From Leptolyngbya subtilissima AS-A7 (lineage in GTDB: Bacteria > Cyanobacteriota > Cyanobacteriia > Phormidesmidales > Phormidesmidaceae), in contig NZ_JAMPKY010000002.1 of assembly GCF_039962255.1 (NCBI RefSeq), forward strand, positions 186,001-250,000: a DNA stretch of 64,000 nucleotides, read 5' to 3'. The stretch's first letter is position 1. Each line of letters opens with the position of its first letter. Shown piece after piece: positions 39,090-52,719 of this stretch. The notes under the pieces are model-generated. The model worked only from the letters and a program-made list of their open reading frames with translations. It was not told the origin of the DNA and did not search any database. The position numbers and the translations under genes are program-made.

Positions 39090-40025
39090 ATGACGACATT
39101 TTTTGCACCTGATCCTGACCTGCAAGCGACCTTGGAACAGGTATTAGAGCAGGTGCGGGCCGAGTTTGCGTTGACGCCTACTCAAATTGCCGTGACCTGG
39201 GTGGTCTATGACCCGCCCTACATCGTCAATACTGGCGGGGCTTTGAGTACCGATGATTTTTGGCAACACCGCCCTCGGGGGGCCAGTTATCGGGGGGTTG
39301 AGCAGATTTACCCAGCCAGCGTGGTGAAGCTGTTTTATCTGGTAGCTGCCCATGAATGGGTTGAGCAAGGAATGATCCAACCATCGGCAGAGCTGGACCG
39401 GGCACTCAAGGACATGATTGTGGGCTCTAGCAACGACGCGACTTCCCTAGTTGTCGATCTGCTGAGCGGCACCACCAGTGGCCCGGAGCTGCCCCCTGGC
39501 CCCTTTGAAACCTGGTGTTACCAACGCAACATTATCAACCGCTTCTTTCAGTCGTTGCCGTGGCCTGAGTTGGTGGGGGTAAACATGAATCAAAAGCCTT
39601 GGGGCGATGGACCCTACGGTCGCGAGCGAGCTTTTGTAGGCGAGCACTACGAAAATCGCAATCGGCTTACCACCAACGCCGTAGCCCGGTTAATTCACAG
39701 CATTGCTGGCGGAGTAGCGGTGTCGGCGGCGCGATCGCAAACCATGCTCTCTTTGATGGGGCGCCATCAACCCATTACCCCGCCAGCACCCGGTGAAGAA
39801 GACCAGTTCACTGGGTTTTTGGGGGAAGGCCTACCCCAGAGCACTCGACTCTATTCAAAGGCAGGGTATACCAGCAAGGTGCGCCACGACGCCGCCTACT
39901 TTGAGCTACCCAGCGGCGAACCTGGTTTGCTAGTAGCTTTTATCGAAAGCTCTGGGCACAGCAAAAACAGACAAATTTTACCTCGGTTGGCCAGTCTCAT
40001 AGTTCAGCACATGGTCAGTCCATAG
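39090..40025 (+). CDS. Beta-lactamase-like (class A fold) serine hydrolase
   Basis: 311 residues. The penicillin-binding/serine beta-lactamase motifs are PASVVKLF (SxxK, about residue 75), GSSNDATS (SDN-like) and SKAGYTSK (KxG-like, about 260). No signal peptide is apparent, unlike true secreted beta-lactamases, so an intracellular esterase or peptidase is as likely as an activity on cell-wall precursors. Monocistronic. Confidence 0.8.
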   Translation: MTTFFAPDPDLQATLEQVLEQVRAEFALTPTQIAVTWVVYDPPYIVNTGGALSTDDFWQHRPRGASYRGVEQIYPASVVKLFYLVAAHEWVEQGMIQPSAELDRALKDMIVGSSNDATSLVVDLLSGTTSGPELPPGPFETWCYQRNIINRFFQSLPWPELVGVNMNQKPWGDGPYGRERAFVGEHYENRNRLTTNAVARLIHSIAGGVAVSAARSQTMLSLMGRHQPITPPAPGEEDQFTGFLGEGLPQSTRLYSKAGYTSKVRHDAAYFELPSGEPGLLVAFIESSGHSKNRQILPRLASLIVQHMVSP

Positions 40026-40318
40026 GGTTAGGGCAAATGTTCCAAAATGCTAGTCACCCTTCGATATTGATCTGCCCTAATGTAGAGTCGCGCCTATCCA
40101 AAGTAGGTGCAGAATGTTGTTAACATAGCCTCGTCCCTAGGCTGAAGATGGTACAATTCAGCCAATTTCAGAGGCACATGTGGTGTGTGAATCTGTAGCG
40201 ATAGGAATAGTTTTAACTTTCCTGAATCTCACTACGACATTGCGATTTCAAGAGCGATTAATCGTTGGCATTTAGCCAATGAGACTTGATTGTCAAAAAT
40301 CTGAGGAGTGAACGAATC

Positions 40319-41146
40319 ATGGCGTATCTCAAGCAAGTTTCCCTAGCTCTCAGCCTAGCGGCCGTAGCCGGTATGGCTGCCCCGGCCCTGGCCCACAATC
40401 ACCTGGCCGAGCTAGAGCCAACCCAAAATACCTTAGCTGAAGCAGTCGAAAGCTCTACTGAAGCAACCACTGAACCTGTTGTAGCTGACGAAGCCACCAC
40501 CGCTGAAGTGCCCGCTGCGGCTGAAGTGCCTGTCGTTGAAGCGATCGCCCCGGTGGAGCCAGCGGAGTCTGATGCTAGCCTGCTCGCTTTGCCCGAGGCT
40601 GAGTCGCTTACCGCTGATCAAGGTTCGTTCGACACCACTGGTATTGAGTCGGCTCTGACGGCGGCCACCATTGAGGTTGCTCCCGCCGCCAACGATTCTA
40701 TTGATCTGGCCCAGGGCACCACCCGCCCGGCCTACGAGATCAGCCCCGCTTACCTGGGCGTGGGCGGCAACATCGGCATCGGCAGTCGCAACGACAGCGG
40801 GCTGTCTAGCTTTGGTTTCAACGTCATCAGCAAAATCTCCCTTGGGCCTCGCTTCTCGCTGCGGCCTGGGGCGACCATCACCAACAACCGGTCGAGCTTC
40901 ACCATTCCGGTGACCTACAACTTCAGCACCTTGAGCTACAACGGGTTCCGTGCTCAGCCCTACGTTGGGGCTGGGGTCGATATTCCCACCAGTGGCGATG
41001 TGGGTCTGCTGATCAACGCTGGGGCCGACGTACCCATCTCCCGCGACTTTACCTTTAACGCCGTAGGCAACTTCCGAGTCACCAGCGGCTTTGCTCTCGG
41101 TATCTCCCTGGGCGTGGGCTACAACTTCCCCTTCATCTTTGAATAG
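40319..41146 (+). CDS. Exported beta-barrel-type outer membrane protein
   Basis: About 275 residues from the ATG at 40319 (GAGGAG upstream). A signal peptide ends near PALA|HNHL. Residues about 25-125 are low complexity and rich in Glu, Ala, Thr and Val (EVPAAAEVPVVEAIAP). The C-terminal 140 residues alternate polar and hydrophobic residues in strand pattern (NIGIGSRNDSGLSS, GLLINAGADVPI) and end in Phe-rich GVGYNFPFIFE, typical of an outer-membrane barrel of eight or so strands. Porin-like or adhesin-like role; not recognised more closely. It has its own strong terminator. Confidence 0.75.
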   Translation: MAYLKQVSLALSLAAVAGMAAPALAHNHLAELEPTQNTLAEAVESSTEATTEPVVADEATTAEVPAAAEVPVVEAIAPVEPAESDASLLALPEAESLTADQGSFDTTGIESALTAATIEVAPAANDSIDLAQGTTRPAYEISPAYLGVGGNIGIGSRNDSGLSSFGFNVISKISLGPRFSLRPGATITNNRSSFTIPVTYNFSTLSYNGFRAQPYVGAGVDIPTSGDVGLLINAGADVPISRDFTFNAVGNFRVTSGFALGISLGVGYNFPFIFE

Positions 41147-41204
41147 AACTACGGATAAATCACCCGTTTGCCAATGCCATCTGAGGCAACAGTAGCCACT
41201 TATT

Positions 41205-41240
41205 AGGAAGGGGATCGTGTTTAGGCGCGATCCCCTTCCT
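41205..41240 (+). terminator. Terminator of the outer-membrane protein gene
   Basis: A perfect 13-bp stem (AGGAAGGGGATCG / CGATCCCCTTCCT) with a 10-base loop, 59 bases after the stop codon. Confidence 0.8.
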
Positions 41241-41317
41241 TGTATGCAAGCTGCCAACTGTGGGCTAAATCGCGGGGCTGATTCGGGCATTCTGAAGGCA
41301 CGATTCAGGGTGTGACG

Positions 41318-41485
41318 ATGGCAGAACAGTCCATGGCCTGGGCCAGCGTGCTCCAGGCGTTTCAGCAGATTTGGGGCTATAGCGACTTTCGCCCACCCCA
41401 AGATGCGATCGTTAAGGCTTTGCTCAATCATCAAGATATTTTGGTCGTGCTGCCCACCGGTGAAAACTACAGCCTTCTTTCTTAA
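41318..41485 (+). pseudogene. recQ: recQ, 5' fragment (interrupted by the mobile element)
   Basis: From ATG 41318 the frame reads a RecQ N-terminus: AFQQIWGYSDFRPPQDAIVK (the Q motif FRxxQxxAI) and ILVVLPTG, the beginning of helicase motif I. Right after GGT (41459-41461) the text becomes ENYSLLS and a stop, which is element sequence. The missing continuation, GGKSVCFQLPALL, is found about 9.9 kb away at 51391. So one recQ gene of about 500 codons is split inside the Walker A codons. The fragment makes at most 55 residues and cannot be active alone. Confidence 0.93.
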
Positions 41486-41580
41486 TTCTATAAAGTAAAC
41501 AACAACAAAACAATACGCGTATACTATAATCGTGGAATGCTAACTAATAGCGGTTCGTTATCGTCCACGAAGTAAACAGC

Positions 41581-42723
41581 GTGAAAGTTCAAAAGGTTGT
41601 ACTCCCGGATTCCACTGTCCCTAGTTGGGTGCTGATTGGTGACGACTTTTTGCCAATTGAGCCTGTCCAAGAATTTTTAGACTACCTCCGAAATATTGAC
41701 CGCTCACCAAACACAGTGAGAGCGTACGCTTACCACCTGAAGCTCTACTGGGATTACTTGGAGAGCAAGCACCTTGAATGGACTGGCGTGGGACTACCGG
41801 AGCTGGCCGAGTTCATGATGTGGCTCAGAAGCCCCAACCCTGGAGGTGTGGTCTCCATGCTGGAGCAGGAGGCCGCACGGTCAGAGTCTTCCATCAATGT
41901 GATTCTCTCCTCAGTGTGCATGCTCTACGACTTCCACGAGAAATGTGGCAACGTTCCACACATTCCTCTGTACCGCACACAAGTCATGGCTGGCAGGCGA
42001 TACAAAGGGTTCCTGCACCACATTACGAAGGGTAAGCCTGTCAAGACCCGGCTACTCAAGCTGAAGGTGCCAAAGAAGCACCCAAAAGCCTTGAGTACAG
42101 AGCAGGTTGAAGCTATCGTTGGCGCTTGCACTCGAATTAGAGACCGATTCCTAATTTGCCTGCTCCACGAATCCGGAATGCGCATAGGCCAGGTTCTAGG
42201 GCTTAGACACGAGGACATAGCCTCTATGGACAATCTCATCAAAGTCGTGCCTCGTGACGATAACGCCAACAATGCCCGCGCTAAATCGCGAGATCCTTAT
42301 AGCCTGCATGTCTCGCAAGAGCTGATGGCGCTCTATACCGAATACCTGGAGAAGGAATTCATGGAAATTCTGGAGGGCAATTTCAGCGACTACGTCTTCG
42401 TGAACCTCTGGGACGGGGCCATCGGAGAAGCCATGACCTATAACAACGTGATGGATTTATTCAGGCGGCTCAAGAGGAAAACCGGGATTGCGATTCATCC
42501 CCACATGTTGCGCCATACCCACGCTACAGAGCTAGTCCGGGATGGCATGCAGATGGCTTACGTCCAGAAGCGGCTAGGCCATCAAAGCATCCAGACAACC
42601 ATCGATACTTATGTCCATCTACAAGATGGCGACCTCAAGGAAGCGTACCAGAAATATTTAGAGAGCCGAGACCATGACGCTACAGCCGGAACCCCAGAAG
42701 AAGGGCCGACGATATCCGCGTAG
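41581..42723 (+). CDS. tnpA: Tn554 TnpA-type tyrosine recombinase
   Basis: 380 residues from GTG 41581. The start MKVQKVVLPDS and SPNTVRAYAYHLKLYW (core-binding domain) match my recollection of Tn554 TnpA. All catalytic residues are visible: Arg201 (ESGMRIGQVLGL), His308 and Arg311 (HPHMLRHTHATEL), His334 (LGHQSIQTT) and the nucleophile Tyr344 (IDTYVHL). It cuts and rejoins DNA through a phosphotyrosine link, and with TnpB inserts the element at specific sites. The 3' end overlaps tnpB by 50 bases. A TATAAT-like -10 lies at 41525-41530; no good -35 was seen. Confidence 0.93.
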   Translation: MKVQKVVLPDSTVPSWVLIGDDFLPIEPVQEFLDYLRNIDRSPNTVRAYAYHLKLYWDYLESKHLEWTGVGLPELAEFMMWLRSPNPGGVVSMLEQEAARSESSINVILSSVCMLYDFHEKCGNVPHIPLYRTQVMAGRRYKGFLHHITKGKPVKTRLLKLKVPKKHPKALSTEQVEAIVGACTRIRDRFLICLLHESGMRIGQVLGLRHEDIASMDNLIKVVPRDDNANNARAKSRDPYSLHVSQELMALYTEYLEKEFMEILEGNFSDYVFVNLWDGAIGEAMTYNNVMDLFRRLKRKTGIAIHPHMLRHTHATELVRDGMQMAYVQKRLGHQSIQTTIDTYVHLQDGDLKEAYQKYLESRDHDATAGTPEEGPTISA

Positions 42724-44278
42724 GAAGCAACCTTCAGACGTCATAATCCTTTGCAAGCACTGCAACGGCGGGAACTGCATCAAAAAAGGTGTCACGACCA
42801 GCAAACAGCGACAGTCTTACTGGTGCAAGGATTGTGAGCGGGCTTTTATCGAGCCCATTCCGCCAAACCTGTTTGACATAAATCCTGAAGATGAGTACCA
42901 GAAGGATATTTGGGACTGCCGCCGTCTAGGAATTTCGCCGAGCGTCGGCAAGCAGGCCTACACCATCAAATTCACGAAAATCTCTCAGCCTTGGTTGCGT
43001 CAAGCGGGCAAGGCGTTCATCAAGCTGTCTCTCAGCACCGTAGGCTTTTCCTCAGCCCTAAACAAGGTGGGTGCAGTCAACAAGTTTTCTGTATTCCTTG
43101 CCAAACGGCACCCCTCCATCGAGCCAGCTCAGGTGAGCCGTGAGATTATCATTGACTTTTTGGCTTACTTGGCAGGTCAAAAAATAGCAGCAACAACACG
43201 GGCTCACCTTATAGGGGATTTACGAGACTTTCTAGAACTGTGCTATCACAACGATTGGTTGCCAGTCACAAGGTATTTAATCCGGCGAGAGGACTATCCT
43301 AAGCGCCCTAAAGCAATCCCCCGGTACATCCCGGAAGTTGTGATGCAGCAGCTCAATCGGCACCTGGATGACCTGCCAGATCCGGTTATGCGGATGGTGT
43401 TGGTAATTCAAGAATGTGGGATGCGAATCTCTGAGTTGCTCCACCTGAAGCCGGATTGCTTACTGCAAGACCGTGCTGGTGATTGGTTCCTGCGCTACTA
43501 CCAGTTCAAGCTCAAGAAGGAACTCACCATCCCAGTATCTAAGGAGGTAGTCCGAGTCATTCAGGAGCAGCGTCAGTACATCCAGGAGCACTTGAATGAG
43601 CCTTACGAGTACCTATTCTGCACTACCTATTGTGGCACTGGCTTCCGGCCAAGAGCCAAGCTAATGAGCCGGATAACTTTCGCAAAGTACCTTAACAAGC
43701 TTGCTAAGCAGCACAGCATCTGTGATGAAAGTGGGAAGCTCTGGCACTTCCAGACCCATCAGTTTCGGCACACCGTCGGCACTCGAATGATCAACAATGG
43801 TGTGCCGCAGCACATCATTCAGCGTTATCTCGGGCATGAGTCACCTGAGATGACGGCTACTTACGCACAAATTCACGACCAAACCATGAAGGAGGAAATC
43901 GCCAAATTTCGCGGCAAGGTGGTGAACATATCAGGCCAGGTGGTTGAGCCCAATGACATTGAGGCTGATGACCACGAACTGCAATGGGTCAAGAAGAATA
44001 TTCAGGCTCAGGCACTACCAAATGGCTCGTGTGCTCTGCCAGCTATCTCTAAGGGATGTCCTCACGCAAACGCTTGCTTAACCTGTACACACTTCCGAAC
44101 AACCTCTGAGCACCTACCTACTCATCAACAGGAAAGAGAGGAGACGCTGAAGGTTATCGACAAAGCCAAAGCTAACGGCTGGCAGCGGATAGTTGAGATG
44201 AACGAGAAAAAGCTGATCAGCTTAGACAACATCATCAACGGACTTGAGGGAGGTGCCGAAGATGGCTGTCGAACGTAG
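42674..44278 (+). CDS. tnpB: Tn554 TnpB-type tyrosine recombinase with N-terminal zinc finger
   Basis: 534 residues. The catalytic set is complete: Arg251 (ECGMRISELLHL), His362 and Arg365 (HQFRHTVGTRM), His388 (LGHESPEMT) and Tyr397 (TATYAQIH). Residues 27-54 form a Cys-rich finger (CKHC, NC, WCKDCERAF) much like the zinc ribbon of IS1-family InsA. A second Cys cluster near the C-terminus (CALPAISKGCPHANACLTC) is a TnpB-type feature. It starts inside tnpA and overlaps tnpC by 17 bases, so the three are translationally coupled. Confidence 0.92.
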   Translation: MTLQPEPQKKGRRYPRRKQPSDVIILCKHCNGGNCIKKGVTTSKQRQSYWCKDCERAFIEPIPPNLFDINPEDEYQKDIWDCRRLGISPSVGKQAYTIKFTKISQPWLRQAGKAFIKLSLSTVGFSSALNKVGAVNKFSVFLAKRHPSIEPAQVSREIIIDFLAYLAGQKIAATTRAHLIGDLRDFLELCYHNDWLPVTRYLIRREDYPKRPKAIPRYIPEVVMQQLNRHLDDLPDPVMRMVLVIQECGMRISELLHLKPDCLLQDRAGDWFLRYYQFKLKKELTIPVSKEVVRVIQEQRQYIQEHLNEPYEYLFCTTYCGTGFRPRAKLMSRITFAKYLNKLAKQHSICDESGKLWHFQTHQFRHTVGTRMINNGVPQHIIQRYLGHESPEMTATYAQIHDQTMKEEIAKFRGKVVNISGQVVEPNDIEADDHELQWVKKNIQAQALPNGSCALPAISKGCPHANACLTCTHFRTTSEHLPTHQQEREETLKVIDKAKANGWQRIVEMNEKKLISLDNIINGLEGGAEDGCRT

Positions 44279-45104
44279 TGTTGATGGGTTGCGTCGAAGC
44301 GCCCAGAGAAAGCATCAGGAGGCACTTGAGAAGGTCGAGAAAGGTATCCAGAGCCTCGTTAAGGATAAACGCCCTATAAACTTCAACACCGTTGCTGAGG
44401 CGGCTGGAGTGAGCAAAGCGTGGCTTTACAAAGAAGCTGACGTTAAAGCTCGTATTGAGCAACTCCGGGCGCAGTCTTCTGGCTCCAAAAAACAGCCCCC
44501 AGTCAACCAGCGGGCTTCAGATGCCTCAAAAGATGCCTTGCTTAGAACGATGAAGGAGCGCATCAAACGCTTAGAAGCGGAGAACAAAGATCTGAGGCGA
44601 CAAAACGAGGTGGCCTACAGCCATGTTCTAAAAGCCCGCGATCTGGAAAAGGAGGTGCAGCGGCTCAACGCTCACGTTGAGCGCTTGCAACAAAAAATGC
44701 ACTTGAACAGTGCCGACGCAACGCCTCCTGAGCCAAAGAGTATCCAGCTTGCTCTGGCCGATCTGGGTGTAGAAATGAATTCAACCCTAGTGCGGCTGAT
44801 TACCGAAACGCCTGTGGGTATTTTGGAGACTGCTATTGAGGCACTTAAGGAAGCACTGGCTAAAGGGCCAGTAAGAAGTCCTGGCGGTTTCTTCCATAGC
44901 GCTGTTAGAGACTGCTGGAGGCCGAATGAGGTTTACCAGGAGAAGGCTGATATGGAAGAGTTCAATCAGTGGTGGAAGTGGGCTTATGACAAGGGCTTGG
45001 TTAGAGCAGCCATGCAACAAGACGGAACTCAATTTGTTTTGTCTGCTGATGGAGAGTGGTACTCGTTTGAAGAAATAACGAGGCAATACCCACTAGGCTC
45101 TTAA
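44262..45104 (+). CDS. tnpC: TnpC-like transposition accessory protein (DUF6262 type)
   Basis: 280 residues from ATG 44262, with GAGG 9-12 bases upstream; an upstream TTG at 44244 is less likely. The N-terminus (RSAQRKHQEALEKVEKGI, then TVAEAAGVSKAWLYKEADVK, a helix-turn-helix-like stretch) is the part shared with Tn554 TnpC. A coiled coil (KERIKRLEAENKDLRRQNEV) follows. The last 110 residues (about 170-280) are longer than classical TnpC and contain GGFFHSAVRDCWRPNEVY and QWWKWAYDKGLV. In Tn554, TnpC helps orient insertion; it is not a recombinase. Confidence 0.8.
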   Translation: MAVERSVDGLRRSAQRKHQEALEKVEKGIQSLVKDKRPINFNTVAEAAGVSKAWLYKEADVKARIEQLRAQSSGSKKQPPVNQRASDASKDALLRTMKERIKRLEAENKDLRRQNEVAYSHVLKARDLEKEVQRLNAHVERLQQKMHLNSADATPPEPKSIQLALADLGVEMNSTLVRLITETPVGILETAIEALKEALAKGPVRSPGGFFHSAVRDCWRPNEVYQEKADMEEFNQWWKWAYDKGLVRAAMQQDGTQFVLSADGEWYSFEEITRQYPLGS

Positions 45105-45235
45105 TTCCAGTCCAATTTGATGTATTTGCGTCTTTAATACCCAAAAACCAAGACATTTATACACTTGAAACACTAAGCCATTTAATATGCTGCACTTATA
45201 CATTGGCTCGACATAAATTCCAAAAACTTATACGA

Positions 45236-45299
45236 ATGCTTGCTGAGTAATATTTTTATGCTTGCTGCGCTATGCTTGCTGCATCAATTAGCAAGCAAA
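45236..45299. promoter_or_regulatory. Iterated operator-like repeats upstream of the P63C gene
   Basis: ATGCTTGCTG occurs three times directly repeated (45236, 45258, 45272), and its inverse TAGCAAGCAA follows at 45289, ending just before the ATG at 45304. AATTAGCAAG in the last copy recurs at 46559. This spacing is typical of an iterated binding site for a regulator, possibly the P63C protein itself. Confidence 0.55.
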
Positions 45300-45303
45300 A
45301 GTT

Positions 45304-46353
45304 ATGGCTAGCAAATCAGCATCGGCAGGGCAGTCTTCTGGGCGCTCGAAGGGGGGCAAGGCACGAGCTGAAAAACTTTCCTTGGAACAGCGGAGAGAGA
45401 TAGCAAAGCGGGGTGCTGAAGCTAGGTGGAACAAAGATGTCCCAAAGGCCGTTTATTCGGGGGAGTTAACTATTGGGGATATGACATTTCCGTGCTCTGT
45501 GCTAAGTGACGGGACTCGTATCCTTACTCAATCAGATTTCATGGAAGGCATGAATATGTACTACAGCGGATGGGTCGCAAACAATAGAAGCCCCGAAAAT
45601 GTCGCTGCAGAAGTGCCGCATTTTTTGGCCTTCAAAACTCTCAAACCCTTTGTAGATAGGCACTTGGGCGATCTGCAGTCTATCGCTGTGAAATATAGAA
45701 CTGAGAGGGGCAGCCTAGCCCACGGTATTAAAGCTGAAATTATCCCAAAAATTTGCGATGTGTGGATTGACGCTGATGATGAGATTAGGCTTGGCTCACG
45801 CCAAAAGCAAGTAGCTCAGAAAGCTCGGCTTATGATGAGAGCACTGGCCCACGTAGGCATCGTTGCCTTGGTTGACGAAGCTACTGGGTACCAGAGAGAT
45901 AGAGCCTCAGATGCCCTGTCTCAAATACTAGAAGCTTTTATTGCAAAAGAATTGCAAGCATGGGTCAAGACATTTCCTAATGAGTATTACGAGGAGCTGT
46001 TTAGGCTCAGGGGGCTTTCATATCCTACCGACACCGTAAAACGGCCTCAATATTTCGGAAAGATAACTAATGATATTGTTTACAAGCGCTTAGCTCCTGG
46101 AGTATTAGAGGAACTAAGAGATACAGTTCCCAAAACCAAATCAGGTAATCGCAAGCATCGATTCTTCCAAAAGCTAACGCCTGATATTGGGCATCCCAAA
46201 CTAAGAGAACACTTATCTTCAGTTGTAACTATAATGAAGTTAAGTGATAGCTATACAGACTTTCAACGAAAATTAGACAAGATTCATCCAAAATACAACG
46301 AAACCTTGCCTCTAGACCTAGATTTCAGCGAAGATTCCGGGCGTGGGCTGTAG
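45304..46353 (+). CDS. P63C-domain protein (phage/mobile-element associated)
   Basis: 349 residues. A basic N-terminus (GRSKGGKARAEKLSLEQRREI, RGAEARWNKD) is followed by a body with the Phe/Pro-rich P63C signature FPNEYYEELFRLRGL (about 221-235). The C-terminal part includes NRKHRFFQKLTPDIGHPKLR. The domain is known from phages and mobile elements, and its biochemical role is not established. The gene is preceded by three iterated repeats and followed by its own hairpin terminator, so it is a self-contained unit of cargo. Confidence 0.8.
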   Translation: MASKSASAGQSSGRSKGGKARAEKLSLEQRREIAKRGAEARWNKDVPKAVYSGELTIGDMTFPCSVLSDGTRILTQSDFMEGMNMYYSGWVANNRSPENVAAEVPHFLAFKTLKPFVDRHLGDLQSIAVKYRTERGSLAHGIKAEIIPKICDVWIDADDEIRLGSRQKQVAQKARLMMRALAHVGIVALVDEATGYQRDRASDALSQILEAFIAKELQAWVKTFPNEYYEELFRLRGLSYPTDTVKRPQYFGKITNDIVYKRLAPGVLEELRDTVPKTKSGNRKHRFFQKLTPDIGHPKLREHLSSVVTIMKLSDSYTDFQRKLDKIHPKYNETLPLDLDFSEDSGRGL

Positions 46354-46360
46354 AAAATAG

Positions 46361-46399
46361 AGAAACAACCGAAGGGAATGCTCATTCCCCTCGGTTTCT
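46361..46399 (+). terminator. Terminator of the P63C gene
   Basis: An imperfect stem (AGAAAC-ACCGA-GGGAAT paired with ATTCCC-TCGGT-TTCTT) with a 4-base loop starts 7 bases after the stop codon. Confidence 0.7.
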
Positions 46400-46402
46400 T
46401 AT

Positions 46403-46470
46403 GGGCCGCGTCTGGTACCCTCCTGGCCTCCTAAGCCCCTGGAGGAGGGGTCCGAATCCCCTGCGGTCCA
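46403..46470 (+). pseudogene. tRNA-Arg(CCU)-like sequence without a proper D-arm
   Basis: The ends pair as a tRNA acceptor (GGGCCGC with GCGGTCC, one G-U). A perfect 5-bp T-stem (AGGGG/CCCCT) holds the loop TCCGAAT, one base off consensus. In the middle GGC-CTCCTAA-GCC gives a 7-base anticodon loop with CCU (Arg) on only 3 bp. No D-arm can be drawn and the total is about 68 bases. A competing fold pairs CCCTCC with GGAGG. Most likely a captured, decayed tRNA or an attachment-site remnant; a functional tRNA is less likely. Confidence 0.5.
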
Positions 46471-46558
46471 CATCTATTATAAGCCTTTGACTTCTACGTT
46501 TTGGCTCAAAACATCTGACCCAAAAAAGAGCGGAACAAGACAAAACTAGACCTATGCA

Positions 46559-46595
46559 AATTAGCAAGGAATAAAAGAAGCCCTAATTGCTAATT
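46559..46595. repeat. 9-bp inverted repeat AATTAGCAA / TTGCTAATT
   Basis: Perfect 9-bp arms at 46559-46567 and 46587-46595, separated by 19 bases, in the gap after the tRNA-like sequence and before the end of the convergent Ntn hydrolase operon. The arm shares AATTAGCAAG with the repeats upstream of the P63C gene, so it may be a second binding site for the same regulator. Confidence 0.5.
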
Positions 46596-46663
46596 AGAAG
46601 TGACATTTCTTTTGGAAAAAAGAGTAGGTCGAATATAGTAACAACTACCTCCAATCAGAATCG

Positions 46664-46873
46664 TCATTTCTTCATAGAACTAGGTGAAATATTTTTTGTC
46701 ATGAAGACCTTTTCGACAACTGCATCAGCAATTCTAATTGCCTCTTTAGTGATCTTATCCTCTTCTGAATAAAGGTCTTTCTCAACATTTTTTGAATATG
46801 ACTTCGGGAAATTTTCTTTCAGCCATTCATCTATGCTTACAACTTCCTGATTTTCAACTCTTCTCTGTTTCAT
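46664..46873 (-). CDS. 69-residue partner gene of the Ntn hydrolase
   Basis: 69 residues, charged and mostly helical (SIDEWLKENFPKSYSKNVEK, then DKITKEAIRIADAVVEKVF). Its ATG overlaps the stop codon of the Ntn hydrolase gene in an ATGA arrangement, so its translation is coupled to that gene. Not recognised. The overlap suggests a dedicated partner, for example an inhibitor, adaptor or substrate; the sequence does not decide between these. Confidence 0.7.
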   Translation of the reverse strand: MKQRRVENQEVVSIDEWLKENFPKSYSKNVEKDLYSEEDKITKEAIRIADAVVEKVFMTKNISPSSMKK

Positions 46874-48240
46874 AAGTCTTCGCCTTCCATCCCAGGGTTT
46901 TTGCCTTCATTATACTCTACTATGCTTCTTCTGGCAAAGAAGTCGGAATTAAGTGATGGGTCAAAATAGTGTTTTCGTTTATACCAGATAAATCCGTCGC
47001 CTTTAGAGATAACAGCAACATCGGTTGGGCCGCCGACAGTTTCTTCATCCGTGGAAACTTTCCTTCTCAAAGAGGTTAGGCTAACTAACGCTTCAGCCAT
47101 TTCAGCTAATTCCTCCTTCGGAAGGTTGCTGACGGTTTGCATAACAGGTTCAATAAAATTATCGTGTTGGTATTTTCTTATTTCTTCAACGAACTCGTGT
47201 ACCAGCGCGTTCTTTGTCTCCTTAGACTGATTTTTAACACTCTCCTTTGTGTCTTCAGGCATATTTTCTGGAGAGTTAGCCAGCATAGCGCTCGTAAAGC
47301 TATCGAACCAAGCCGCCAGTATTCTTTCTATAGATTGGACTTGTATGTTTAGAAGGTGGCTTGACAGCCCCGCAACAAAAGTATAGATTACGTCCTCTTG
47401 GGCAAATGGAATAATACTCGAATGCGGTCGGTTTGAGTATTCTTTAGAGCTGTCAAAAGCGTATTTGACTTTACCTTGAAAAACTCCTTGTATTTTATAC
47501 GGCTTAAGATCTGGAACCATTTCATCCCTCCCAAATCCGGCTATTACAATGCCGGAGTAACCGGACGAAAAATCATCTTTGCATACAGAAAGTCCCGCGA
47601 TTTTATGAAGTTTGCTCTTGTTAGACTTATTGATTTTCAAATCCTCAAACACTTGATCCATTAATTCATTAGTGACTGCATCATTTTCAGATATTAAACT
47701 GGTCGCAAAGGTCTTATCAAATCCCGCCGCAAATTTCTTTTTGTCAAGATAATTGAAGCAGTCGTCTATTGCTTCGTCTATTATCGTCTTGATGCGAGTA
47801 GATGTCACTTTCCCATCCTTGCTTTCTTTTTTTATCCCAAGTAGTTCTTTTTCTATGTTTTGCTTGATGTTGAAGAAAGTGCTAAGGATGACCGCCCTAA
47901 AACTTCGCTCTTGGTCTTCGGGCAGAAAATAATGAGTGTTATTTGATAAAAAGTTGAGAAAATCTTCAGCATAAGCGCTAATGGTAGGAAAATAGGTTTT
48001 GCCAAGTTTTGCCCTATAAACCTTTATTAAAGATTCCCAAGGTACTCCTGTAAGACTTGCATCTCCATAAACCATTACCCCTATAGGCTCAAAACGCGAC
48101 AGAGAAAATAGTTTATTTGCAGTATTGAAAATTTTTGTGCCTCCTGCAAGTCTGTTGCCTACCACTAGGCTAATCGTTACCGCACTATCGGCAGCCAAAG
48201 CTATAGCCTGTCTATTTATAATGGCAACTTCAGTAGTCAT
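46870..48240 (-). CDS. Proteasome-beta/HslV-like Ntn hydrolase, element-borne
   Basis: 456 residues. After removal of Met1 the N-terminus is TTEVAII, with AALAADSAVT-type text (IALAADSAVT) placing an Asp at mature position 17 exactly as in proteasome beta subunits (Thr1, Asp17); a lysine in GGTKIFN at 35 can stand for Lys33. NKLFSLSRFEPIGVMVYGDA fits the next strands of the fold, where the proteasome has its GxxAD region. The remaining 250 or so residues (for example IVIAGFGRDEM, IYTFVAGLSSHLL) are unknown to me. By inference an autoprocessed threonine hydrolase or protease. It is the first gene of an operon with the 69-residue gene. No Shine-Dalgarno is seen before the ATG. AT-rich, unlike the chromosome around the element. 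Confidence 0.75.
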   Translation of the reverse strand: MTTEVAIINRQAIALAADSAVTISLVVGNRLAGGTKIFNTANKLFSLSRFEPIGVMVYGDASLTGVPWESLIKVYRAKLGKTYFPTISAYAEDFLNFLSNNTHYFLPEDQERSFRAVILSTFFNIKQNIEKELLGIKKESKDGKVTSTRIKTIIDEAIDDCFNYLDKKKFAAGFDKTFATSLISENDAVTNELMDQVFEDLKINKSNKSKLHKIAGLSVCKDDFSSGYSGIVIAGFGRDEMVPDLKPYKIQGVFQGKVKYAFDSSKEYSNRPHSSIIPFAQEDVIYTFVAGLSSHLLNIQVQSIERILAAWFDSFTSAMLANSPENMPEDTKESVKNQSKETKNALVHEFVEEIRKYQHDNFIEPVMQTVSNLPKEELAEMAEALVSLTSLRRKVSTDEETVGGPTDVAVISKGDGFIWYKRKHYFDPSLNSDFFARRSIVEYNEGKNPGMEGEDL

Positions 48241-48357
48241 TTAATGAAGGAGTAAAGTACTATGTTCGTCACTACAATTCAAGCTGTCAAGATGCTAATG
48301 TTCTCGCTAAGTATATATTTATATTGGTGAAAAATATTAAACTCAAACCGAATCAGC

Positions 48358-48530
48358 TACCATCCACAGTCCCAGTGGACCTTAGACGGCTCTACCTAAA
48401 GTAGCGTCATCTCACATCGGGGACAGCGGCCAGTGAAGAGAGGATGCCAATCAAGCATTACTATGCACTGCTCTGGCGCGTGTTGCTTTGGAGGAGAAGA
48501 GATTTACTCTCTGCCGTAGAACGCATCCGG
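48358..48530 (-). pseudogene. Broken copy of the small zinc-ribbon gene
   Basis: The minus strand reads MLDWHPLFTGRCPRCEMTLL, a stop (TAG), then VEPSKVHWDCGW, matching the intact gene at 48847-49056. Upstream, the copy also has TAA where the intact gene has a Gln codon (GEQIPSP). The CICGW of the intact copy has shrunk to CGW. Two stops and a lost cysteine make it non-functional. Confidence 0.75.
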
Positions 48531-48846
48531 CTCCCTGGGTGGTTCCGGTCGTAGGGTTACCATCTGTGGCATAGCCCCCGTGCCGGTGCCCCTGTGAAGA
48601 GCGTTCCTGTGCGTCTTCTTCCGAAGTAGTCGTTTGAGCTTCTTGAGGGCTTTGGCTTTCTGTGTGGGTGTCATAGGCTTTGAGGGTATCTGTGTAAATT
48701 TTATTCAGTGCCAAGACTTCAGTAACCTTCCTAGCGTAACCTCGTTAGACATAGACGATGCTGCGTTTGCCCTTATGAGCACCGGAACAGCGAAGCAAAT
48801 GCTGAAGACTATCCAGAGATTGTCTACGCTAGCTTATTTATCAGAG

Positions 48847-49056
48847 TCAACATTTAATCTTATTAGTCCATCCACATATACAGTCCCAATGAGCCCTGGG
48901 CGGCTCTGGCTGAAGTAGTGGCATCTCGCAAGCAGGACAGCGACCTGTAAACAGCGGGTGCCAGTCAAGCATGTCTAGCCGCTGCTCTAGTGTGTGACGT
49001 GCCAGAGGAGAAGGGATTTGTTCTCCGTCATAGACTGCCTCTGGGTCGTTGGGCAT
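48847..49056 (-). CDS. Small zinc-ribbon protein, 69 aa
   Basis: From the ATG at 49056 the product is 69 residues. Two Cys pairs, CPAC and CICG, are spaced as in a zinc ribbon (about residues 42-63): GRCPACEMPLL then HWDCICGWTN. The N-terminal half, YDGEQIPSPLARHTLEQRLD, is helical and charged. A degenerate paralogue lies 500 bases downstream on the same strand. Function unknown; small DNA- or protein-binding adaptors of this form are common cargo on mobile elements. Confidence 0.6.
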   Translation of the reverse strand: MPNDPEAVYDGEQIPSPLARHTLEQRLDMLDWHPLFTGRCPACEMPLLQPEPPRAHWDCICGWTNKIKC

Positions 49057-49353
49057 AATAGGCCTCACTCTTCGACTCACCTTCAATATGCCCTTATGCG
49101 CCTAACTCCCGTGCCATTCGGCTGCTCATCATTGGCCTGCTACTGATCGATCTCATGTTCATCGTCTACGCCTGGGAGAGCACCATGTGGCGGAGTAAGG
49201 TCACGAACGTGCTAGTAGACATGATGAAGCAGAGTCTTTAGAAACCTATCCATCAATAGAGGCTCTCCGGTGCAGGAGCGTTAATTTGAGAGTGTATCTG
49301 TTGCCGTATCTCAATGAACATTGGCAAGGCATTCGTGTGGAGATAGGACTCTG

Positions 49354-49390
49354 TCACTCCATGCTTGCCTATGAGTCACGCATGGAGTGA
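49354..49390. terminator. 11-bp hairpin in the non-coding region
   Basis: TCACTCCATGC (49354-49364) and GCATGGAGTGA (49380-49390) are perfectly complementary with a 15-base loop. No T-run follows directly (GAATTTTATG). It could be a terminator or a structural element near the DnaA boxes. Confidence 0.4.
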
Positions 49391-49507
49391 GAATTTTATG
49401 TAAGTTAAGATTTCCTCAAGATTCCTGTCGATTTAGGACTTAAATCTACTTCCAGTTTGTTAAGATTTGATAACAATTTCCGCGAAACCTGTCAAATATG
49501 TTGGAAC

Positions 49508-49549
49508 TTATCCACAGGTTTTCCACAGTTGAGTTGCATGTTTTCCACA
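49508..49549 (+). promoter_or_regulatory. Three helically phased DnaA boxes
   Basis: TTATCCACA at 49508, TTTTCCACA at 49519 and TTTTCCACA at 49541. The first is the general bacterial DnaA box; TTTTCCACA is the form typical of cyanobacterial oriC. Starts are 11 and 22 bases apart, so all face the same side of the helix. A near match (TTTTCACGA) follows at 49552. The surrounding DNA is AT-rich. No dnaA, dnaN or rep gene is nearby, so this is an origin-like or DnaA-responsive site within the element, not the chromosomal origin. Confidence 0.6.
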
Positions 49550-49888
49550 GATTTTCACGAGTTTCCGCCATTAGAGGCGTTTTTGGGGAAAACTTTTATC
49601 AAGACATTAGCAATCGAGTGAGGTGATGATATTTGTATAATAGGAGGCTGAACGTAGTTAGTCGTACCTCGTTTCTAGGTATTGACGACAGGTTTGTCAG
49701 GGTCGAGAATGGGCGAATCTACTTGAATTGATCTTTTGATCACGCAGGGACTAAGAACTTAAGGGTGCATGGGGTCTTGAAAGGGTCCAGTTTGTAGCCT
49801 TATCTCGCTCTCAGTTTCTAGATTAAATAGATCAGTTATTTTTGGTGTGGCATTGGCTCATGAATATTGACAAGTGAGAACTTTACAT

Positions 49889-50167
49889 ATGCTGCGGGAT
49901 AAGGAAGGGTCAAAATACTCTAATAAAGACGAGTCTTCAGATACTTCCCGGAACGAGTTATCTACTAATCAGCGTAGCCATCTTTTAAAAGAGGCTTCAT
50001 CAGATTACCTAAAAGGTAAAGTCACTAAGGCCGAACTCGAAAAGATAGAAGAAGACTTATCAACAGATTATGGTGAAGCTGCCTACCATATATCTACCCT
50101 AGCTTCTATATTATGTAATGCTCTTCAGAAGCTAGTAGATCCAAACGAGAGGAAGCTCTCAAAATGA
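49889..50167 (+). CDS. Hypothetical charged helical protein, about 92 aa
   Basis: From the ATG at 49889 the product is about 92 residues; a GTG at 49874 would add five. It is polar and helical (SHLLKEASSDYLKGKVTKAE, LEKIEEDLSTDYGEAAYHIS), rich in Lys, Glu and Ser, with no Cys and no membrane segment. A very strong hairpin follows 9 bases after its stop. Not recognised. Confidence 0.55.
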   Translation: MLRDKEGSKYSNKDESSDTSRNELSTNQRSHLLKEASSDYLKGKVTKAELEKIEEDLSTDYGEAAYHISTLASILCNALQKLVDPNERKLSK

Positions 50168-50176
50168 TTTAGAAGA

Positions 50177-50234
50177 TTACAAACACCAAAAGACCGCTGA
50201 GTGAAATCATTCAGCGGTCTTTTGGTGTTTGTAA
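50177..50234. terminator. 24-bp perfect hairpin terminator
   Basis: A perfect 24-bp inverted repeat with a 10-base loop (inner arms AAAAGACCGCTGA / TCAGCGGTCTTTT) lies between the 92-residue gene (plus) and the GAF gene (minus), where a bidirectional terminator is expected. The A/T-rich outer stem serves as a T-run in either direction. Confidence 0.85.
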
Positions 50235-50287
50235 AAATGCATAGCTTTAATAGCTTTAACGGACTCATGTATCATCATTACCTAGAA

Positions 50288-51064
50288 TCATGCTTCCATT
50301 AGTACCGAAAATCTATCAGCAATTCCTTGTATTACATCGCGCATCCCTCGACGATCAAAGCTATCTTGGTGGCTACTGTAAAGGCATAGAACGCCAAGGT
50401 TGCCGTTTTCACTGGGGATAGCAGCGCAAATAAGAGAACGATAGCCGATGCGTCCAGCAGGAGATTCTATGTAGCGGTTATCATCTGCATCGCCATTCTT
50501 GTCGAAATGAACTATATGTATTTGGTTATCAAGAAATGTTAAACCTGCAATTCCACGACTCCCAGATGGGCTTCCCTGTAAGCTGTCATCTCCTATAAAG
50601 AAGGTAAGAGCTACATCATCAGTTTCGTTCGGTGTAGAGTATCGCAGCCAAGTTGTTAAATAGTCACTTTGAGCTTTTCGGCAGTACAAAGCTACGCCAC
50701 AAGTATTAAAAGTTTCTAGTTTAACTAGGTCTGTCATCAACTTTTTTACAGACTTCTTTCTTATATCCTCTTTTTCAGAAGCCTCAGAAGCTTTGTATAG
50801 TGAAGGAATAAGTCTGAATAAACTATCATCTAGTCTATGCATGTCTGATACTAATCTCAAAGCCGCTTGATGTCTGATGACCGTGTATGTCAGGGGGCCA
50901 CTAAACAAAACTAAGATACATACAAGCGTACCAACATCAAATGTCAATGACTTCCCAAGAAAAGGTAAGACTTTGTCTACGAAAACATCTGCTTTATTAC
51001 CAATCACTCCAGTGACGGCCGCAGAAGCCGCAAATATAAGGGTTGGCGTTAACTGTCTGCGCAT
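50288..51064 (-). CDS. Membrane-anchored GAF-domain protein
   Basis: 258 residues. Two hydrophobic segments lie at about 5-22 (TLIFAASAAVTGVIG) and 40-62 (VGTLVCILVLFSGPLTYTVI). A helical linker (HRLDDSLFRLIPSLYKASEA) leads to a cytosolic GAF domain of about 150 residues, with GDDSLQGSPSGSRGIAGLTF and ICAAIPSENGNLGVLCLYSS. No output domain follows, so it probably senses or relays a small ligand to a partner. Single gene near the element's right end; partner unknown. Confidence 0.75.
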   Translation of the reverse strand: MRRQLTPTLIFAASAAVTGVIGNKADVFVDKVLPFLGKSLTFDVGTLVCILVLFSGPLTYTVIRHQAALRLVSDMHRLDDSLFRLIPSLYKASEASEKEDIRKKSVKKLMTDLVKLETFNTCGVALYCRKAQSDYLTTWLRYSTPNETDDVALTFFIGDDSLQGSPSGSRGIAGLTFLDNQIHIVHFDKNGDADDNRYIESPAGRIGYRSLICAAIPSENGNLGVLCLYSSHQDSFDRRGMRDVIQGIADRFSVLMEA

Positions 51065-51366
51065 AGCATACAGGTACTTTAAAGCCTATAAATCAATAAA
51101 TCTAAGCAATTATCGCATAAAGAAGCTAAGTTAAGCAGATATTGGCTTGTTCCATTGAGTAGATCCATTTAGGCTATATAAAGTTTGCTAGCGCAAAAAA
51201 ATTGGGCAAAATGCCTAAGACAATTGCCGCCTGTGTTTGTCAATAACTCAGTTTAAGCAAGGATAATGACAAACTCTGGTCAGTAGACAATGGCAATCTC
51301 AGCGTGAATCAAGTTTACTTTGTATATATATCAACGAGCTGAAAGACTCTTGAAATAAGGGTTTCA
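51065..51366. other. Right end of the element, non-coding
   Basis: About 300 AT-rich bases between the GAF gene's start and the recQ 3' fragment. It should contain the GAF gene promoter and the right recombination end. No inverted copy of the left end was seen. Confidence 0.45.
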
Positions 51367-52719
51367 GTGATTTGGCTCAAGATAAGACGGGGCGGAAAAT
51401 CGGTTTGCTTTCAACTACCGGCGCTGCTGCAGTCGGGCCTGACGCTGGTGGTTTCGCCCCTGGTGGCGTTGATGGAAAACCAGGTGCAAGAGCTGCAAGA
51501 CAAAGCCCTGCCCGCTGCCACCCTCCACAGTCAGCTGCCACCACCCGTGCGGCACCGCACCCTCAGGGCACTAGAACGTCAAGAACTGCGGCTGCTCTAC
51601 GTTTCGCCTGAGACCTTGTTTAGTCCGCCCGTCTGGGAACGGCTCTGCCAACCGAAACTCCGGCTCAATGGCCTAATTTTGGATGAAGCCCACTGCCTGG
51701 TGCAGTGGGGTGAAACTTTTCGCCCCGCCTATCGCCGCTTGGGGACGGTGAGAAAAGCGCTGCTGGACTGCCGCCCAGCTGGTAGCACCCTGCCCATTGC
51801 GGCTTTTACCGCCACCGCCGATCCCGAGGCCCAAACCGTCCTGCGCGAAGTGCTACAGCTTCAGTCGCCCCAGGTTGTGCGGCTTAATCCCCACCGTCCT
51901 AACTTAAATCTGCGAGTGAAGGCTGTGGTCAGCGAGGGCCAGCGCAAGGGCGTGTTAAAGCGCTACCTTCAGCAGCACTCCAACCAGGCGGGGTTAGTCT
52001 ATGTGCGCACTCGCAAAGATAGCGAGGCGATCGCCCAGCAGTTGGGCGATCGCTATCGGGTAGCGCCATACCACGCCGGGTTGAGCAGCCGCGATCGCCG
52101 CCAGATTGAGGCTGACTGGATGGCCGACAAACTTCAGTTTGTGGTCTGCACCTCGGCCTTTGGCATGGGCGTTAACAAACAGTCAACTCGCTGGGTGGTC
52201 CACTACCAAGCCCCCTGCACCATTACTGAGTACGTGCAGGAGGTGGGGAGAGCCGGGCGCGATGGTAACACCGCCGAGGCGCTAACTATAGTAAGCGAGC
52301 CGATGGGTTGGCTGGAGCCGGGCGATCGCCAGCGGGCCAAATTCTTTGAGACTCAAACCCAGGCTCTACAGCAAAAAGCCCAGCGCCTAGTCACCCAAAT
52401 TCCGCCTGAGGGAGACGTGCGCGACATTAGCCAGCAGTTTGAGCACGGGGCTATTTCCCTATCGTGGCTGCACAGCGTTGGCCAGCTGGAGTGGATGAGC
52501 CCGTTTCAGTACCAGCTCATCGACCGGTCGGCGCAACCGGTGCGATCGCAGGAGTCAGCCAGCCAGCAGATGCATCAATTCCTCCACAGCCGTCACTGTC
52601 GCTGGCAGGCTCTGCTCGTAGCCTTTGGTTTTCGCAGCGAGGCGCAGCGTCTAGGAGGTTGTGGGCATTGCGACAACTGTCATTCTCCGGCCAAAACTCG
52701 TCGGTCGTCCGCGAACTAA
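51367..52719 (+). pseudogene. recQ: recQ, 3' fragment (about 443 codons of the helicase)
   Basis: recQ text resumes at 51391 with GGKSVCFQLPALL, followed by motif Ia, LILDEAHCLVQWGETF (DEAH box), AFTATADP (motif III), FGMGVNKQSTRWVVHY and EYVQEVGRAGRDG (motif VI), and a zinc-binding GGCGHCDNC near the end. By chance or selection, a GTG at 51367 in element DNA reads in frame into it (WLKIRRGGKS), so a protein lacking the Q motif and the first glycine of motif I could be made. The native gene needs both fragments joined. No other disruption is seen, so precise excision could restore a working RecQ. Confidence 0.9.

Follow-up and report, generated by a model that had tools for sequence, protein, structure and literature searches.

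A census of proteasome homologues by Fuchs, Alva & Lupas (2021; PMC8665760) described 22 new families. The largest of these, PMI-4 (proteasome homologue with multiple insertions 4), comprised 501 sequences at 90% identity and was recorded from bacteria including cyanobacteria, from Euryarchaeota and from phages; HDY66466.1 belongs to the published set. Its insertions are located after H1/H2 and between H3/H4. The function of PMI-4 was not known in 2021, and neither a genomic context nor a co-occurring gene was found. PMI-3 also has both insertions, but it comprises 28 sequences and is unrecorded from phages or cyanobacteria. Helical insertions in such homologues were argued to preclude the standard double ring. 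Connectase, in turn, is a proteasome homologue which acts as a specific ligase (PMC8665760).

We analysed a window of 64,000 nucleotides from Leptolyngbya subtilissima AS-A7 (contig NZ_JAMPKY010000002.1), the relevant features of which are listed in Table 1. A preliminary description had reported two open reading frames of 456 and 69 residues on the same strand, overlapping by ATGA, and a mature product that begins TTEVAII after Met removal, with Asp at position 17; the sequence bears out all of this. Neither protein has a family in Pfam, NCBIfam or PADLOC. The PF00227 model (Anbu/HslV/proteasome) does not match the 456-residue enzyme and there is no relevant NCBIfam match, while phrog_5990 of PHROG (function unknown) includes it (E = 4e-121).

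Table 1. Features of the mobile element and of the gene pair (coordinates of the window).
Feature	Position	Strand	Evidence
Tn554-like element, about 9.93 kb, in Walker A coding region of recQ	41463..51390		Flanks contiguous in congeners; exact empty site
TnpA-like tyrosine recombinase	41581..42723	+	PF00589, E 4e-34
TnpB-like tyrosine recombinase	42674..44278	+	PF00589, E 7e-31
TnpC-like protein	44244..45104	+	DUF6262 (PF19776), E 8e-16
P63C-domain protein, other cargo	45304..46353	+	PF10546, E 2e-34; PHROG 2384, E 4e-121
Partner gene, 69 aa, motif SIDEWLKENFPKSY	46664..46873	-	Profile from other partners, E 2.1e-8 and 1.7e-7; 0/691 control gene ends
ATGA overlap of enzyme and partner genes (start/stop coupling)	46870..46873	-	Sequence
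Proteasome-beta-like Ntn hydrolase, PMI-4 type, 456 aa	46870..48240	-	Fold, residues, relatives; phrog_5990, E 4e-121
Lys43 codon (residue probably equivalent to proteasome Lys33)	48112..48114	-	137/137; aligned with Anbu KLF
Codon of Asp18 (mature Asp17)	48187..48189	-	Kept in 136/137
Codon of Thr2, predicted nucleophile once Met is removed	48235..48237	-	Thr 135/137, Ser 2/137; model residue 2 on proteasome residue 1
GAF-domain protein, other cargo	50288..51064	-	PF01590, E 8e-6

Relatives of the enzyme were confirmed by a scan with a C-terminal motif, which gave 453 in a set of bacterial and archaeal genomes and 165 in a viral set; 80 were kept per set. Together with 13 sequences from annotated phage and plasmid records and the window protein, these make up a non-redundant set of 137. 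The range is very broad and covers bacteria, archaea, phages, plasmids and one transposon. Closest to the window enzyme are L017 from Nostocales (44–45% identity), with which it is grouped in a quick tree (support 99), and L220, whose partner protein has SFEEWQSKTFPKL.

An AlphaFold2 model of the enzyme (pLDDT 92.8, pTM 0.88) has a proteasome-beta fold, so that the proposed Ntn sandwich is present. VIA-align superposes the model on yeast 20S beta5 with a Z-score of 18.1 (188 residues, 4.0 Å), on the Thermoplasma beta subunit with 17.5 and on Anbu with 17.2, and model residue 2 falls on proteasome Thr1. Foldseek gives weak alignments (best E = 7e-4), which probably reflects the doubled length of the chain. 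At the sequence level, a PDB search gave a weak proteasome beta match only, around a GG-x-x-DVAVI motif (E = 0.011). Comparison by hhalign with a profile of 24 Anbu-type sequences from related genomes yielded an N-terminal match (E = 1.8e-5, probability 78%) which aligns MT, D18 and KLF. The enzyme is predicted with very high confidence to be of the proteasome-beta type with an N-terminal threonine. Helices 68–79 and 87–100 (H1/H2) are present in the model. According to its secondary structure, helices 107–220 are inserted after the helical region 68–100, and helices 294–372 between helices 282–290 and 375–395. In the N-terminal region, a beta hairpin (48142–48170) has a few extra residues (at about 25–30) which are missing from nearly all relatives.

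By its architecture and distribution the family is almost certainly PMI-4. The family is accordingly not an unknown one, since it corresponds to one already in the 2021 census.

The two residues on which the assignment had been made to depend, Thr2 and Asp18, are kept almost throughout the family. Directly after the start codon, Thr is found in 135 of the 137 non-redundant relatives and Ser in the other two; all but one (136) retain Asp18, and Lys43 is invariant (137/137). The start codon is ATG, GTG or TTG and always lies immediately 5′ of the Thr/Ser codon, and 107 of the 137 relatives are devoid of any in-frame upstream alternative start. This N-terminal conservation is no selection effect because the search patterns were derived from the C-terminal motif. 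Methionine aminopeptidase takes off a Met preceding Thr, and the predicted nucleophile would therefore be exposed without a propeptide. As to the catalytic lysine, the preliminary description had pointed to mature Lys35 (K36 in Met numbering). This residue is conserved (132/137) but is probably not the catalytic one, for which K43 fits better. K43 (mature 42) is probably the equivalent of proteasome Lys33, since it lies in an NKLF motif, is aligned to the KLF lysine of Anbu by profile–profile comparison, and is invariant.

The coupling to a small partner, noted before at a single locus, is now seen across the family. Among the 134 loci with enough downstream sequence, 129 have an open reading frame of 45–95 residues which starts between 40 nt before and 60 nt after the enzyme stop codon, and the remaining five also have small open reading frames. 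In three of these (L008, L086, L103) the partner overlaps the enzyme gene beyond the searched interval; in two (L003, L155) the downstream frames have 34–35 residues. In L103 (8001–9395 and downstream), the enzyme gene is lengthened and runs, in a different frame, through most of the partner gene. Within the genome set, a small downstream frame is present at 76 of 79 enzyme genes, compared with 186 of 597 (31%) other long open reading frames.

A profile of 36 partners having an aromatic-aromatic-Pro motif matches 54 of the 137 family loci, whereas 691 control gene ends gave no match. It finds the window partner, which was absent from the training set, with E = 1.7e-7; a further comparison with a profile of other partners gave 2.1e-8. 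Phage and Bacillota partners have diverged too far to be reached by this profile; several of them retain similar short motifs (EWQKxFNP, FFNLP) as judged by eye. All partners are likely to share a common ancestor. As a set, the partners gave no convincing match to a Pfam family. For the partner, a weak Pfam match to DUF6926 (E = 0.0016, below the cut-off) was not adopted. Enzyme and partner distances are correlated (rho 0.61, compared with a shuffled maximum of 0.24), a correlation which co-inheritance alone would also produce. A conserved third gene was sought around the family loci and was not found.

Because a small gene occupies this position in every bacterial, archaeal and phage relative examined, enzyme and partner probably act as one working unit. 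That the partner is functionally tied to the enzyme is very likely. It is a newly recognised companion of PMI-4, for which the 2021 census had no co-occurring gene. The largest family of that census had been left without a functional lead, and a partner at essentially every examined member provides one.

In the best-defined group of partners, Pro23 is invariant (52/52) and is preceded by an aromatic or hydrophobic pair. This could mark the site at which the partner, as a dedicated substrate, is cut or fragment-ligated by the enzyme in a connectase-like manner. The pairing of a single enzyme with a single small coupled protein would suit such a reaction, and insertions in the proteasome fold have been tied to specificity and altered assembly (PMC8665760). 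However, the C-terminal helix of the partner is also conserved (Gly, Ala and Leu positions) and looks like a binding surface, and the connectase-type S3–S4 insertion differs from the insertions of the PMI-4-type family. We consider a dedicated substrate unlikely and somewhat favour a partner which acts as a regulator. A fold of enzyme and partner as one chain (L025, stop codon read as Gly, alignment A6) had a mean pLDDT of 71.9 with core residues 1–44 and 364–437 below 50, and therefore docking cannot be read from this model.

The gene pair is carried by a transposon, as had been proposed. Its three transposition genes code for two tyrosine recombinases and a TnpC-like protein, in this order, as is typical of Tn554-like elements; its boundaries are at 41463 and 51390, and a sister genome has the exact empty site (L187). 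This site, CTGCCCACCGGTGGCGGAAAATCGG, belongs to the Walker A region of recQ as identified from the translated sequence, and recQ is split by the exact insertion of the element. In G012 the flanks (window 39500–41462 and 51391–52000) form one contiguous stretch, and they also abut in five further congeners (G004, G010, G019, G021 and G022). In the sister genome G011, related transposition genes (90% identity) occupy the same recQ site with other cargo (L188, 1996–16883): a dGTPase (PADLOC, E = 6e-93), a type II cytosine methyltransferase (E = 1e-157) and nuclease-like genes. The element has a specific target site, as the same recQ position is used in G011 and is empty elsewhere. The defence-type cargo of this transposon thus seems to be exchangeable.

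Two further observations concern the DNA within the element. A near-perfect inverted repeat with 28-nt arms is found at 50177–50234, where a stretch of 58 bp aligns to its reverse complement; it is possibly a terminator. To the right of the gene pair, a short stretch occurs in two diverged copies (48345–48460 and 48880–49000), and this duplicated stretch is related to a region in several congeners (window about 48900–49240).

Mobile carriage, the coupled two-gene layout and the small size of the partner are features expected of toxin–antitoxin style addiction, in which a toxic enzyme is neutralised by a short-lived partner and the element is thereby kept in its host. In archaeal and bacterial genomes, however, the family is also found beside housekeeping genes and not on mobile elements alone, and we regard addiction as rather improbable. 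The very broad range including archaea, together with the proposal that homologues without a known unfoldase clear unfolded proteins (PMC8665760), could point to a general protein-quality or regulatory peptidase whose partner would be an adaptor to a host unfoldase or an assembly factor. PMI-4 is rare and patchy, being present in one of 145 related genomes and in two of 386 genomes of the phylum, whereas a chromosomal PF00227 homologue, of the Anbu type by sequence, occurs in 45 of 59 related genomes including that of the window. A housekeeping role of this kind is quite doubtful.

The settings of the relatives bear on the role of the pair. Immediate neighbours in genomes are mixed with many housekeeping genes, and an enrichment of defence genes among them was weak at best. 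Prophage relatives adjoin genes for Q antiterminator, holin, endolysin and repressor, and streptococcal satellite relatives are placed at the end of the element. A gene of a mobile element can serve the element itself instead of defence. The prophage positions might accordingly mean that the pair aids its carrier, for example by cleaving a phage repressor or a protein of a rival phage; but the same pair occurs in plasmids, in the transposon and on archaeal contigs without such genes, which makes this reading improbable. A defence or anti-element role is supported circumstantially by the cargo of anti-phage type which G011 has at this recQ site and by the prophage and satellite positions, while the lack of a match of enzyme or partner to the anti-phage profiles of PADLOC-DB 2.0.0 counts against it. 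We regard this role as evenly balanced between being right and wrong.

The beta fold, the Thr/Asp/Lys set, the two helical insertions, the family-wide small gene and the Tn554-like carriage are results of computation. Our preferred reading, to which we give about an even chance, is a two-gene mobile cassette of a PMI-4-type enzyme and its translationally coupled partner that works as a partner-regulated threonine peptidase. Because the insertions would hinder a standard double ring, the enzyme may form a small oligomer or an unusual assembly. It would act as a Thr-dependent peptidase or transpeptidase. The partner would bind it via the aromatic-aromatic-Pro motif and the C-terminal helix, and would keep it inactive or aim it. 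Upon infection, the partner might be lost or displaced, or a phage protein might be recognised, and specific cleavage would be released. The cassette would then most likely be anti-phage or anti-element cargo.

At least five family loci, all from Pseudomonadota (L008, L060, L086, L012, L013, L189), adjoin ubiquitin-like operons with multiubiquitin-Prok-E2-ThiF, JAB in part, DUF6527 and a ClpP-like protein. L008, L060 and L086 form one clade (support 100). Near their enzyme genes, these three loci have a conserved protein of 191–198 residues, sigma-factor-like in look. It is conceivable, though doubtful, that PMI-4 and its partner constitute a widespread two-gene immune module of bacteria, archaea and mobile elements in which the small protein regulates the exposed Thr site, and which in some Pseudomonadota has been joined to a ubiquitin-like conjugation operon as a minimal ubiquitin–proteasome-like defence. 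Should the cassette prove to be immune cargo, the known defence effectors would come to include a proteasome-like enzyme, and the proximity to ubiquitin-like operons would inform how tagging and degradation became linked.

In comparison with known systems, HslV is likewise a Thr1 enzyme of the same fold without a propeptide, but it is smaller and acts with HslU, whereas the window enzyme does not match that family and an HslU partner gene is absent at this locus. Connectase is also a non-canonical proteasome homologue bearing helical insertions; it is devoid of H1/H2, which the model of the window enzyme contains, and its insertion is located elsewhere. Anbu resembles the enzyme in fold and shows significant N-terminal profile similarity. 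It differs in that the window enzyme lacks a PF00227 match, is twice as large, has helical insertions and a coupled partner and is mobile; the same genome has a separate PF00227 gene besides. The bacterial ubiquitin-like operons (multiubiquitin, Prok-E2, ThiF/JAB, DUF6527) which adjoin PMI-4 in some Pseudomonadota have no counterpart near the gene in the window. For PMI-4 itself, the literature covered, which lies outside most subscription journals and bioRxiv, reports no function or partner, also after 2021. The window enzyme shares with this family the proteasome-beta core, the equivalents of Thr1, Asp17 and Lys33, the lack of a propeptide and insertions at the same two places. The 2021 paper names no partner, and the small coupled partner is found here.
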